From Myxococcales bacterium (lineage in GTDB: Bacteria > Myxococcota_A > UBA9160 > SMWR01), in NCBI GenBank assembly GCA_022572485.1, contig JACZVU010000146.1:1-6799 (forward strand): DNA of 6,799 nucleotides, in the 5' to 3' direction. Position 1 is the first letter of the stretch, and each line of letters opens with the position of its first letter. This document shows positions 2 through 5,700 of the stretch, one piece after another. The notes beneath the pieces were generated by a model, which had not been told where the DNA came from, searched no databases, and saw nothing but the letters and a program-made list of their open reading frames with translations. The position numbers and the translations under genes were made by a program.

Positions 2-430
2 CTGCACGAGTTCGCTTTCGAGTTGCCCCGGCCCCCAGCCCGCATAACCGAGCAACACGCGCATCCTGCCGGGCGGATCGCTCGCGATGCCTCGGAGCAC
101 GTCGAGCGAACCCGCAAAGCACAAGCCCGGTCGGATCTGGGTGACATCTTCGCCTCGCTCGCAACGCTCCTCCGAGCCGAACAACACCCAGCCCGTCTGA
201 GGCTGAACGGGACCGCCCCAGTTGATCTCCCAGGCGGGGTCACCCCGCCATTCGATCTCGAGGGTCGAGCACAGTACGGGAGCCGTGATGTCGGTCGAGC
301 GATTCAGTACGACCCCAAAGCTGCCGGTCTCATCGTGGTGGATCACCAAGATGACCGTCCGTTGGAAATTCGGATCCATCAGCTGGGGCATCGCCACCAG
401 GAGGCCCGGAGCGAGGGCAGATTCCGACAC
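2..430 (-). CDS. yqgE: YqgE/AlgH family protein (UPF0301, DUF179), 3' end beyond window
   Basis: The minus strand reads openly to the left edge and gives the first 143 residues of a YqgE/AlgH protein (family length about 185-190). Near the N-terminus is the signature LLVAMPQLMDPNFQRTV (about residues 10-26), followed by GSFGVVLNR (36-44). An INWGGPVQ segment follows in mid-protein, and LLGYAGWGPGQLESEL sits at about residues 126-141. These are the conserved blocks of the family. It is a soluble cytoplasmic protein whose biochemical role is not established; the algH name comes from Pseudomonas work on alginate regulation. I chose the GTG at 428-430 because it places the family's usual few residues before the AMP motif. 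I see no clear Shine-Dalgarno sequence there, so the start is uncertain. The gene diverges from the CPBP protease gene, and a hairpin repeat copy lies just upstream of it. The plus-strand reading across this stretch is spurious. Confidence 0.93.
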   Translation of the reverse strand, partial: MSESALAPGLLVAMPQLMDPNFQRTVILVIHHDETGSFGVVLNRSTDITAPVLCSTLEIEWRGDPAWEINWGGPVQPQTGWVLFGSEERCERGEDVTQIRPGLCFAGSLDVLRGIASDPPGRMRVLLGYAGWGPGQLESELVQ

Positions 431-3209: not shown

Positions 3210-3827
3210 GTGCGCATTCAATTCGACACCCGAGCAGCCGCGAAGGTGGCTCTCGTTGCACTCGCACTGTACCTGCCGGGCTGTGGTCCGGTCGCAGACA
3301 TTCCAGTCTGGGGCACGCTCCCGGAATTCAGCCTCATCAACCAGAGCGCCGAACCCTACGGAACCCAGCAGCTCGAAGGCCGGCCCTGGATCGCGAACTT
3401 CATCTTCACCCGCTGCCCGGGCCGCTGCCCGATGCTGACCCGCGAGATGTCGCGGCTCCAGACCGAGTTGCGCGGGCGCGGTTGGGATGACGTGATGCTG
3501 GTGAGCATCAGCGTGGATCCCACGAACGATACGCCCGAAGTACTGACCGCATACGCTGCCAAGCACGGCGCGAAGCAAGACGGCTGGCAATTCCTGACCG
3601 GCACTCGGGACAGCATCTGGTCGCTCAGCGTCGACGGTTTCAAACTCGCCGTCGAGGAGATCGAAGACACGGGCGAAGGCCCCATCCTGCACAGCAACCG
3701 ATTCGTGCTCGCGGACGGGCAGCGCCAGATTCGCGGTTACTACGACGCCTTCGATGCAGACGATCGCGCCAAGCTGTTGCGCGATCTCGAAATCGTCCGC
3801 GCGGAATCCGCGTCGGCGACCCGCTGA
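3210..3827 (+). CDS. sco: SCO1/SenC/PrrC family copper chaperone, predicted lipoprotein
   Basis: A 205-residue thioredoxin-fold protein of the SCO family, which delivers copper to the CuA centre of cytochrome c oxidase or acts in related thiol/copper handling. The signature TRCPGRCPM gives the copper-binding pair C69 and C73; the third ligand is His161 in GPILHSNRF. The core fold is typical: PEFSLINQ (38-45), WIANFIF (60-66) before the Cys pair, and VSISVDPTNDTPEVL after it. The N-terminus has basic residues, a hydrophobic run (13-22) and a lipobox LPGC ending at C25, so it is probably exported and lipid-anchored facing the periplasm. The GTG at 3210 is chosen because it supplies the basic n-region; upstream lie GGAAG (9-nt spacing) and GGAGG (3-nt). 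No cytochrome oxidase gene is in view. Repeat copy 3 starts 2 nt after the stop. Confidence 0.93.
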   Translation: MRIQFDTRAAAKVALVALALYLPGCGPVADIPVWGTLPEFSLINQSAEPYGTQQLEGRPWIANFIFTRCPGRCPMLTREMSRLQTELRGRGWDDVMLVSISVDPTNDTPEVLTAYAAKHGAKQDGWQFLTGTRDSIWSLSVDGFKLAVEEIEDTGEGPILHSNRFVLADGQRQIRGYYDAFDADDRAKLLRDLEIVRAESASATR

Positions 3828-3829
3828 CC

Positions 3830-3884
3830 CGCGAATCCTCCGGATCCGCTTTGCGGCAGCGGGACCTGCTCGGGCCCAGTTGGC
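3830..3884 (+). repeat. Bipartite hairpin repeat, copy 3 (diverged)
   Basis: A 55-bp element starting 2 nt after the SCO stop. Hairpin one is GCGAATCC/GGATCCGC (3831-3838/3842-3849) with one A-C mismatch. The spacer TTTGCGGC is identical to that of copy 1. Hairpin two is GGGACC/GGGCCC (3861-3866/3872-3877) with one A-G mismatch. It matches copy 1 at 41 of 55 positions with no gaps. One stem pair is A-T in copies 1 and 2 and G-C here, a compensatory change that suggests the folded form matters. Confidence 0.78.
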
Positions 3885-4098
3885 CGGATCGAGTTCTGAG
3901 CGATTGGCCCTTCCCCCCGGCTCCCCAAAACAGACCCCACGTTGGCAAGGCGATGCGTCGCGCGATTTCATTGAGGAATTCCGCCTGAACCCGATCAAGT
4001 CGGTTCGTTTCGATCAATTGGTGGGGGAAGTTGAGGGCAGGCCCATTTGGAGCGGCGCCTGTCACATGCGTCGGCCTCGCGGCGATTACGACTTCTAT
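3885..4098 (+). other. Gene-poor stretch upstream of fic, nothing recognised
   Basis: Together with repeat copy 3 and the fic control region this makes about 350 bp between the SCO stop and the fic start. One plus frame stays open from 3754 to 4224, and one minus frame from 4065 down into the SCO gene. Neither has a recognisable motif or a convincing ribosome binding site. The base composition looks less GC-rich than the flanking genes, especially towards 4098. A 10-bp string TCCCCCCGGC at 3912-3921 recurs after fic at 5329-5338. It may be leftover DNA from the arrival of fic, which is only a guess. Confidence 0.5.
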
Positions 4099-4123
4099 TC
4101 ACCGCAAACATTGCTGCGAATAC

Positions 4124-4152
4124 TTGCAGATGCGGTGATTGGATCCTATAAC
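4124..4152 (+). promoter_or_regulatory. Candidate sigma70-type promoter of fic
   Basis: A -35 hexamer TTGCAG (4124-4129) and a -10 hexamer TATAAC (4147-4152, five of six to consensus) are separated by 17 bp. Transcription would start near 4159, leaving a leader of about 15 nt that carries just the ribosome binding site. The match is good for such a GC-rich window, and half-site repeats border both hexamers. Confidence 0.6.
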
Positions 4153-4171
4153 CACCGCAAGAGGTGCGGTG
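4153..4171 (+). promoter_or_regulatory. Hairpin with the fic Shine-Dalgarno in its loop
   Basis: CACCGCA (4153-4159) and TGCGGTG (4165-4171) form a perfect 7-bp stem. The 5-nt loop AGAGG holds the Shine-Dalgarno core, and the start codon follows 3 nt after the stem. If transcription starts near 4159 most of the left arm would be missing from the mRNA, so it may act as DNA operator rather than RNA; a longer transcript read through from upstream could fold it. Confidence 0.5.
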
Positions 4172-4174
4172 AAA

Positions 4175-5293
4175 ATGGCATTTATTCACGAGCAGCCTGG
4201 CTGGCCAGAGTTCTCCTGGGATAGCGGGGCCTTGGCAGGAATCCTTGCAGCCGTGCGCCACAAGCAGGGCCGGCACCTCGGGAAGATGGAGACCCTGGGT
4301 TTCGAGTTTCGCGCAGACGCCAGCCTCACCGCGCTCACGGAAGAAGTCGTGAAGTCCTCGGCCATTGAGGGGGAGCACCTCGACCCCGAAGAGGTCCGTT
4401 CGTCCATTGCTCGCAAGCTCGGGCTCGATGTCGCGGGCCTGCCTGAGCCAGGGCGAGAAGTCGAAGGCATCGTCGAGATGATGCTCGATGCCACACGGAA
4501 TTTCGACGTGCTGCTCACAGCGGAGCGCTTGTTCGGCTGGCACGCCGCGCTGTTTCCGACTGGTCGAAGCGGCATGGGCCGCATCACGGTCGGCGCATGG
4601 CGCACTGCGGAAGCAGGTCCGATGCAGATCGTCTCTGGGCCCATCGGTCGCGAGAAGGTGCACTACGAGGCACCCGCGGCTGAACGTCTTGAAACCGAGA
4701 TGAAATCGTTTCTTCAGTGGTTCAACACGCCTTCAGAGATCGACCCCGTTCTCAAGGCGGCAATCGCGCACTTCTGGTTCGTCACAATCCACCCGTTTGA
4801 AGACGGCAATGGACGAATTGCCCGCGCGATCTCTGACATGGCGCTATCGCAAGCGGACGACACGAAGGACCGCTTCTACAGCATGTCTTCGGGAATCGAG
4901 GAAGAACGAAAAGAGTACTACCTCCAGTTGGAGTCTGCGCAGCGCGGCGACCGCGATATCACAGAATGGCTCGTATGGTTTCTCGGTTGCCTCGATCGAA
5001 CCATCGAAGATGCAAACGAGAAGCTCTCGTCCGTCCTTCACAAGGCGAGGCTCTGGCAGCGAATCAACCCCAGCCCCGTGAATGACCGACAGCGAAAGAT
5101 CATCAACCAAATGCTCGACGATTTCAAAGGTCACCTGACCACGTCGAAGTACGCCAAGCTCGCAAAATGCTCAAACGACACGGCGCTTCGAGACATTCGT
5201 GAGTTGTTGAAGCGAGGCATCGTCGCGAAGAACGTAGGCGGCGGTCGAAGCACCAGCTATCGACTGGCTGAGCCCGATGAGGTGTTGGAGTGA
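4175..5293 (+). CDS. fic: Fic family protein (DUF4172 N-terminus, Fic core, C-terminal winged helix)
   Basis: A 372-residue protein of the common three-part Fic type. Residues 9-43 (GWPEFSWD, RHKQGRHLGKMETLGF) match the DUF4172 N-terminal domain. S61-S-A-I-E65-G66 fits the inhibitory motif (S/T)xxxE(G/N), here placed before the core, the class II arrangement; its Glu normally blocks productive ATP binding. The catalytic motif HPFEDGNGRIAR (H206 to R217) is complete, so it should be able to transfer AMP from ATP to hydroxyl side chains. A flap-like segment lies near 136-169 (RITVGAWRT, VHYEAPAA). Residues about 303-364 look like a winged helix (LTTSKYAKLAKCSNDTALRDIRELLKRG, read as two adjoining helices, then GGGRSTSYRL), suggesting DNA binding. 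ATG 4175 is chosen over an upstream TTG because of GAGGTG at 4161-4166. Gene-poor DNA on both sides and a private promoter suggest an accessory unit. The target protein cannot be told. Confidence 0.93.
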   Translation: MAFIHEQPGWPEFSWDSGALAGILAAVRHKQGRHLGKMETLGFEFRADASLTALTEEVVKSSAIEGEHLDPEEVRSSIARKLGLDVAGLPEPGREVEGIVEMMLDATRNFDVLLTAERLFGWHAALFPTGRSGMGRITVGAWRTAEAGPMQIVSGPIGREKVHYEAPAAERLETEMKSFLQWFNTPSEIDPVLKAAIAHFWFVTIHPFEDGNGRIARAISDMALSQADDTKDRFYSMSSGIEEERKEYYLQLESAQRGDRDITEWLVWFLGCLDRTIEDANEKLSSVLHKARLWQRINPSPVNDRQRKIINQMLDDFKGHLTTSKYAKLAKCSNDTALRDIRELLKRGIVAKNVGGGRSTSYRLAEPDEVLE

Positions 5294-5700
5294 GACGCTC
5301 CCGGGTTGTTAGGGAATGCTGGCCGCGCTCCCCCCGGCCTAATTCGCTACTTTGCAGAATCAGATACTCGCCTCCGCGAGGCCATCGCCAAGCAGGCCTC
5401 CGCACGCCAGTACCGTGGCAATCACGAACCCAAGCGCGTTTCGGCTTGTGGCATCGGTATTCGACGGCGCGGGCTCCCAAACGGGACTGACTGAACGCGC
5501 GAGGCGTGCCGGAGCCATAGAGCAATTTCGGTGCCGCACCTGGTCAGTCGGTACGCTGCCATCTTCTGGGCCACCCGTTGGGATCGAAGCGGGGCGCAGA
5601 ACCACTCGAGACCCATGTCGCCCGAAGGCCTCCCGTCACTGCACCCGAGCGACATCGCATTCGATCGGGCCTGAATGCGGTGGTTCTTCTTCACGCGCCA
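5294..5700. other. 407-bp stretch without a recognisable gene
   Basis: It lies between the convergent fic and antiporter stop codons. Short open frames exist on both strands, but none has recognisable motifs or a convincing start. A minus-strand reading around 5360-5440 gives a membrane-helix-like run (ALGFVIATVLACGGLLG) that ends at once, perhaps chance. Weak inverted repeats are present: GGCCG/CGGCC (5321-5325/5335-5339) after fic, and GAGGCC/GGCCTC (5378-5383/5395-5400). Neither is followed by a T-run. It is long for a 3'-3' junction in such a compact window and may hold decayed sequence. Confidence 0.5.

Follow-up and report, generated by a model that had tools for sequence, protein, structure and literature searches.

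A conserved array of inverted half-sites in front of a fic gene is the probable operator of its own winged-helix product

Results

The fic locus and its product

The window analyzed here is the whole stretch of 6,799 nucleotides that opens contig JACZVU010000146.1 of a Myxococcales bacterium. It carries on the + strand a fic gene (4175..5293, ATG at 4175) that encodes a protein of 372 aa and is flanked by genes for a SCO1/SenC protein and a CBS-domain protein. The upstream open reading frame at 3754-4224 had no hit in Pfam or NCBIfam at E 0.001. No adjacent antitoxin gene was found among the flanking genes, so that the locus does not qualify as a Fic-based toxin-antitoxin operon.

The product combines on one chain a DUF4172 domain (PF13776, residues 3-84, 106.1 bits) and a Fic domain (PF02661, residues 114-222, 65.9 bits), both above cut-off. 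The catalytic Fic motif HPFEDGNGRIAR (206-217) and the inhibitory motif SSAIEG of class II type (61-66) are intact, and both stretches are largely invariant in a 30-sequence alignment that includes the window protein. In the structure model, a single AlphaFold monomer with a mean pLDDT of 76, the C-terminus forms a winged helix with helices at 304-316, 323-330 and 334-346 (the recognition helix) and strands at 350-352 and 361-364. The C-terminal segment matched the DIP2311-like_C profile with 28.9 bits (cut-off 27), and the HTH_DeoR match, with 20.4 bits, fell below its cut-off of 21. The best fold match, and the closest solved structure, is CbFic2 of Coxiella burnetii (PDB 8cil; 338 bits over positions 4-364), which has the identical DUF4172-Fic-winged-helix order. 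By its domains, motifs and C-terminal winged helix the window protein is thus a CbFic2-like Fic protein, with a predicted AMPylation/deAMPylation activity.

SoFic proteins are likewise class II Fic proteins with a C-terminal HTH. The window protein falls outside this family (58.6 bits against a cut-off of 550 for the equivalog NF046030), and it is matched with 157 bits by the SoFic model of PADLOC, whose library covers established as well as candidate anti-phage systems. Relatives of the window Fic are encoded on 137 IMG/VR stretches, and a role in defence is possible.

Two further features of the window were recorded. A 468-residue protein with two PilZ matches is encoded at 1401-2807, and a repeat of ∼54 nt with internal palindromes occurs in three copies, at 461-515, 2810-2864 and 3831-3884. 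The first copy is inverted relative to the others, which are 87% and 76% alike to it, and the third sits in the DNA that separates the SCO1-like gene from the fic operator.

Six half-sites in two units cover the fic promoter

The original prediction described four exact 7-mers within 72 bp, arranged as two inverted pairs around the fic promoter. The 7-mers are present (CACCGCA/TGCGGTG at 4100-4106 (+), 4131-4137 (-), 4153-4159 (+) and 4165-4171 (-)), and their clustering is as improbable as had been claimed: the maximum per 72-bp stretch was two in 2000 dinucleotide-preserving shuffles. Over the whole window the 7-mer was observed six times, and 1.21 occurrences were expected. The layout in two inverted pairs did not hold. 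A family consensus derived from relatives, TGCGGNGAWT, recognized six half-sites at 4078-4174, two of which, R1 and R2, had been missed.

The upstream half of the array consists of R1 (CGCGGCGATT, 4078..4087, + strand, one mismatch), F2 (TGCGGTGAAT, 4097..4106, - strand, exact, 9 bp after R1) and R2 (TGCTGCGAAT, 4112..4121, + strand, one mismatch, 5 bp after F2); relatives too have a site at the place in the layout that corresponds to R1. The downstream half consists of R3 (TGCGGTGATT, 4131..4140, + strand, exact), F4 (TGCGGTGGTT, 4150..4159, - strand, one mismatch, 9 bp after R3) and R5 (TGCGGTGAAA, 4165..4174, + strand, one mismatch), whose last base directly precedes the ATG. The order is therefore R-9-F-5-R-9-R-9-F-5-R, in which a 44-bp unit, R-9-F-5-R, occurs twice (4078-4121 with two mismatches and 4131-4174 with one); the expected number of units was 0.00 in 200 shuffles. 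A functional unit of four sites was dropped, because the two further half-sites complete two R-9-F-5-R units. Centre spacings of three, two and one helical turns, once read as the sign of cooperative binding, give way to a rigid R-9-F pair, the recognition cores being 21.0 bp apart in both R1/F2 and R3/F4. The gap between F2 and R3 is 24 bp in the window, and the commonest value among relatives of at least 51% identity is 26. A lone half-site-like TGCGGTGGTT at 5676-5685, 3′ of fic, is unpaired and probably due to chance.

The -35-like hexamer TTGCAG (4124-4129, + strand) lies between R2 and R3, and R3 itself lies inside the spacer of 17 bp that separates it from the -10-like hexamer TATAAC (4147-4152, + strand), which overlaps F4. 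The positions of this promoter and of the start codon agree with those first proposed; the output of a generic sigma-70 scan did not contain the fic promoter. The ribosome-binding-site-like AGAGG (4160..4164, + strand) makes up the 5-bp gap between F4 and R5 and would form the loop of a possible RNA hairpin at 4153-4171. TTG begins 26 bp before F4 in the window, and this is the commonest place for it in 116 aligned regions (66 matches). The hexamers at the aligned -10 place were CATAAT in 26, TATATT in 19 and TATAAT in 15 of these 116 regions, and the overlap of the -10 hexamer with F4 is present in relatives too.

The array is conserved in relatives from 14 phyla and on viral contigs

Relatives were drawn with the 30-sequence alignment, as the best 80 of a larger number of genome loci and the best 80 of a larger number of viral-contig loci. 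The original prediction had made its case depend on homologues sharing the half-sites, and the half-sites do recur, with their geometry unchanged, in the upstream regions of homologues. Of 126 non-redundant upstream regions of proteins with at least 51% identity (window included), 125 contain a half-site with up to one mismatch, and 123 contain two or more. Upstream of fic there were on average 4.48 half-sites per 180 bp; the corresponding values were 0.06 within the genes (126) and 0.10 for DNA farther upstream (117 regions with enough sequence). Neighbouring half-sites of this set were spaced by 9 bp in 156 of 176 R-F pairs and by 5 bp in 128 of 160 F-R pairs. When 143 upstream regions of a later, larger set were scanned for full R-9-F-5-R units with up to four mismatches, 61 had two units, 53 one and 29 none, and the reversed-sequence control gave 0/143; the linker between the units measured 8-13 bp in 60 of the 61 two-unit regions.

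The 75 usable loci of the best 80 genome loci fall into 14 phyla, as assigned by record titles, many of the records being binned metagenome assemblies. At least two half-sites were found in 72 of these 75 loci, with all 14 phyla represented, and strict 9/5 pairs in 55, from 12 phyla. Fic loci on IMG/VR viral contigs share the array as well.

The geometry was also recovered by a rule free of any consensus, which asked for 10-bp arms that start with TG, match at 8 or more positions and are separated by exactly 9 bp (R-F) or 5 bp (F-R). Three short regions, 34 duplicate regions and frames outside 330-620 residues were dropped, leaving 182 non-redundant upstream regions. The rule was obeyed in 142 of them and in 0/182 shuffled sequences. 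With R-F gaps from 0 to 25, 127 pairs were counted at 9 bp, 14 at 8 bp and at most two at any other value. Of the 40 regions without strict pairs, 27 still have two or more TGCGG half-sites with up to one mismatch, and several of the other 13 lack them because they have a visibly different type of half-site; four (L029, L142, L147 and L244) show none. At 34-50% protein identity the spacing was kept and the half-site altered, to TGAAGCGATT (L140), TGAGCCGAAT (L143), TGACCCGATT (L175), TGAGTTATAG (L183) or TGGGCGATAA (L179).

As a hold-out we used two sets of loci on the strand that the consensus-free test had left unread and one later set, 14 loci of which had received an earlier first look; three loci with no usable frame or region and four duplicates were excluded. 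Exact 9/5 pairs were present in 42 of 49 hold-out loci, absent from seven, and found in 0/49 shuffled sequences. These loci are relatives of the training loci and non-redundant only in their upstream DNA, so the hold-out checks the rule and is not phylogenetically independent.

The R-9-F element is almost confined to fic genes

Forty-five whole genomes, each with a Fic relative, were scanned for the R-9-F pattern. With up to one mismatch it was found at 56 places in 35 of the 45. Of these places, 53 precede a full-length fic relative by no more than ∼140 bp, one precedes a broken fic-like gene and two are elsewhere (G015 C6 and G568 C46). The broken gene, a second fic-like gene in genome G015 (L186, 1990-2740), is in pieces and keeps its upstream R-9-F-5-R unit. 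Ten of the 45 genomes had no R-9-F at this threshold despite a relative, some of them with proteins of the His/Lys334 types described below. In one of the scans, two mismatches added seven places away from fic, a number near that of its reversed-pattern control (four). A wider regulon was discarded as an explanation, the 45-genome scans having given almost no sites beyond fic. From these sequence scans the R-9-F sites look dedicated to fic. No neighbouring gene recurred in 10 annotated plasmid neighbourhoods (11 were examined, one of them without annotation).

The half-site covaries with the winged helix

Half-site differences were compared with amino-acid differences in sliding windows of eight residues, corrected for the rest of the protein. 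Of 365 windows (n=142), the highest partial correlations were those of the start of the recognition helix (331-338, 0.40) and of the wing (354-363, 0.38), with a background mean of 0.03 and sd of 0.11. In the subset below 60% identity (n=35) the wing leads with 0.49, and the helix gives 0.38.

Single residues yield a partial code. Proteins with Asp335 have C at position 3 of the half-site in 112 of 113 cases, the exception having T, and proteins with another residue at 335 have A (27) or G (2) there (29/29). In the hold-out, Asp335 went with C3 in 29/29 and other residues with A3 in 13/13. Among Asp335 proteins, position 5 is not G when residue 334 is His or Lys (6/6), and is G with other residues at 334 in 105/107. 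The only hold-out case of this rule, L297, obeys it, as does L042, which lacks strict pairs (His334, TGCGTCGAAT). Asn334, the residue of the window protein, goes with T at position 6 (6/6), and Gln334 mostly with A at that position (41/52; 11/13 in the hold-out). In a single case, L240, the half-sites read TTCGGNGAWT in place of TGCGGNGAWT, and Asn replaces the usual Arg339 of the recognition helix; residue 339 perhaps contacts G2 of the half-site.

Some correlation was also seen elsewhere than in the DNA-binding domain: Q256 ranked second among single columns in both sets, and the window 75-82 correlated too. When the winged helix was left out of the tree, three changes of residue 335 and four changes of residue 334 to His/Lys were counted. 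Paired sign tests on this tree did not reach significance, or could not, because the independent changes are too few, and shared descent therefore accounts for part of the correlation. The covariation with the recognition helix that the original prediction had proposed as a check was seen in both training and hold-out loci.

Discussion

A probable autorepressor operator

Sequence comparison establishes four things: the array itself, the geometry of its sites, an occurrence almost limited to fic, and a covariation of the half-sites with the winged helix. Because the sites recur in fixed geometry and change with the DNA-binding domain of the protein itself, Fic very probably switches off its own gene, the segment 4078-4174 serving as the operator to which the fic product would bind as dimers. 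One dimer would occupy each R-9-F pair, the cores of which, 21 bp or two turns apart, would lie on the same face of the DNA. With R3/F4 occupied by a dimer, the spacer between the -35 and -10 hexamers and the -10 hexamer would be covered and RNA polymerase thereby excluded; repression would be the natural result of R3/F4 covering the promoter core. A second dimer at R1/F2, together with R2 and R5, would raise occupancy, probably via contacts between neighbours, and the Fic protein would thereby hold its own level low.

As in Fic-HTH autorepressors of the CccR type, inverted half-sites lie over the protein's own promoter. CccR, a Fic-HTH effector of Yersinia pseudotuberculosis, represses its own promoter through inverted repeats, and in the available part of that report a dimer-interface mutant did not restore repression (PMC9755527). 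The two systems share a Fic domain with a C-terminal HTH, an N-terminal inhibitory helix and inverted repeats near the -35 and -10 elements (PMC9755527). The DNA-binding helices of CccR are 70.2 Å apart in the structure (PMC9755527), close to the ∼71 Å of B-DNA spanned by the 21.0 bp between the R and F cores of the window. The assignment of one dimer to each R-9-F pair is inferred from this distance and from CbFic2, for which the accessible text reports a dimerization signal with DNA of at least 20 bp and none with 10 bp (PMC10628234). The CbFic2 authors considered it unlikely that both HTHs of the crystal dimer bind ∼20 bp at once without major rearrangement or DNA bending (PMC10628234). CccR differs in its half-site, AGATAATCAT, and in its footprint with a 26-bp spacer, and the part of the report available mentions no R-9-F-5-R array (PMC9755527). 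Equating that 26-bp spacing with the F2-R3 gap was dropped, the register of the CccR half-site being uncertain in the same text.

With CccR a proven autorepressor, as described in the text available (PMC9755527), the autorepression mechanism is not new in kind, and the original view that DNA-binding autoregulation by such Fic proteins is little described is corrected accordingly. Neither the R-9-F-5-R operator nor the recognition code was described among the matches listed in our literature search, which covered titles and the starts of abstracts and few subscription journals. As far as that search goes, three things are new: an operator grammar that extends through the family, the occurrence of this grammar across phyla and on viral contigs, and a partial code of recognition.

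In Doc/Phd and FicT/FicA toxin-antitoxin operons, expression of a Fic-fold enzyme is also autoregulated, and the DNA is bound by a separate antitoxin. The window Fic, in contrast, has enzyme and DNA-binding domain in one chain, and its locus showed no partner gene.

Other readings of the array

The array may be an allosteric ligand as well as an operator. Dimers bound at the promoter with the 21-bp core spacing would then be locked in one catalytic mode and free monomers in the other, the bound mode being perhaps the deAMPylating one by analogy with the proposal made, in the accessible text, for CbFic2 (PMC10628234). We regard this extension as tentative and rather doubtful. If it is true, promoter occupancy both reports and sets the activity state of the enzyme, and does so through a single conserved element whose amino-acid-to-base code can be read.

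It is improbable that the array mainly serves the enzyme, with bound DNA dimerizing Fic and switching its catalytic mode and repression a side effect. DNA binding by CbFic2 via its winged helix does induce dimerization and alter (de)AMPylation, according to the part of the report available (PMC10628234), but the array has the conserved position that a repressor requires, over the -35 and -10 elements and close to the start codon, and a single locus offers each cell little ligand.

Very unlikely, in our estimate, is that the F4-R5 inverted repeat controls translation by forming an RNA hairpin (4153-4171) in which AGAGG is either exposed or masked. Folding of 4151-4190 gave -11.6 kcal/mol (z -2.38), AGAGG being the loop, and 3 of 200 shuffles did equally well. 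Of 72 regions that contain both F4 and R5, 30 have GAG, AGG or GGA in the gap, and in 35 the variable bases of the two arms match, where 22.9 were expected; this ratio of 1.53 is the highest of five pair classes. Direct R-R repeats 34 bp apart, however, which are unable to pair, give 66/139 against 47.0 (1.40), and the upstream R-F, upstream F-R and core R-F classes give 38/75 against 25.4 (1.50), 28/67 against 21.2 (1.32) and 39/98 against 31.1 (1.25). A hairpin as the main driver was rejected on this excess, which is little above that of the other classes. It would also leave R1, F2, R2, R3 and the covariation with the recognition helix unexplained, and in L179, L183 and like relatives R5 is not to be seen, the F arm extending into the ATG.

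Least probable of all is that the sites belong to another regulator, e.g., a global repressor, with fic merely a target, given an element found almost only at fic in 45 genomes and shared among fic loci of 14 phyla (75 usable of the best 80 genome loci) and IMG/VR viral contigs, a site sequence that tracks the Fic winged helix, and the absence of a recurrent neighbour in the 10 annotated plasmid neighbourhoods. The array is thus best read as the operator of the Fic protein itself.

Implications for CbFic2-type and SoFic enzymes

CbFic2 was studied on random DNA, for which it has high affinity, and as a modifier of host histones, and its specificity was left open in the text available (PMC10628234). 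For enzymes of its type, whose reading of sequence had thus been open (PMC10628234), there is now a likely cognate operator with rigid geometry. The aligned CbFic2 helix SRTTAYREL resembles that of SRATAYRE proteins, the half-site of which is TGAAGCGATT in 4/4, and a TGAAGCGATT-like half-site is predicted for CbFic2 from this resemblance. The partial recognition code holds in hold-out loci, and the half-sites recur in 14 phyla (75 usable of the best 80 genome loci) and on viral contigs. Which DNA controls AMPylating Fic enzymes thereby becomes a directly testable question, and the operator can help to recognize and class uncharacterized members of the family.

The grammar differs in the SoFic family. 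Exact 9/5 pairs were found in 0/28 usable upstream regions (of 30), and extending the grammar to these proteins was dropped; when 8-bp gaps were also allowed, on one strand only, 2/15 had pairs. The SoFic loci (L249-L278) do show TG-anchored inverted pairs at other spacings, with an R-F gap of 7 bp in 5/28 and an F-R gap of 14 bp in 5/28, and perhaps follow a sister grammar with a TGTATAGAAA-like half-site.
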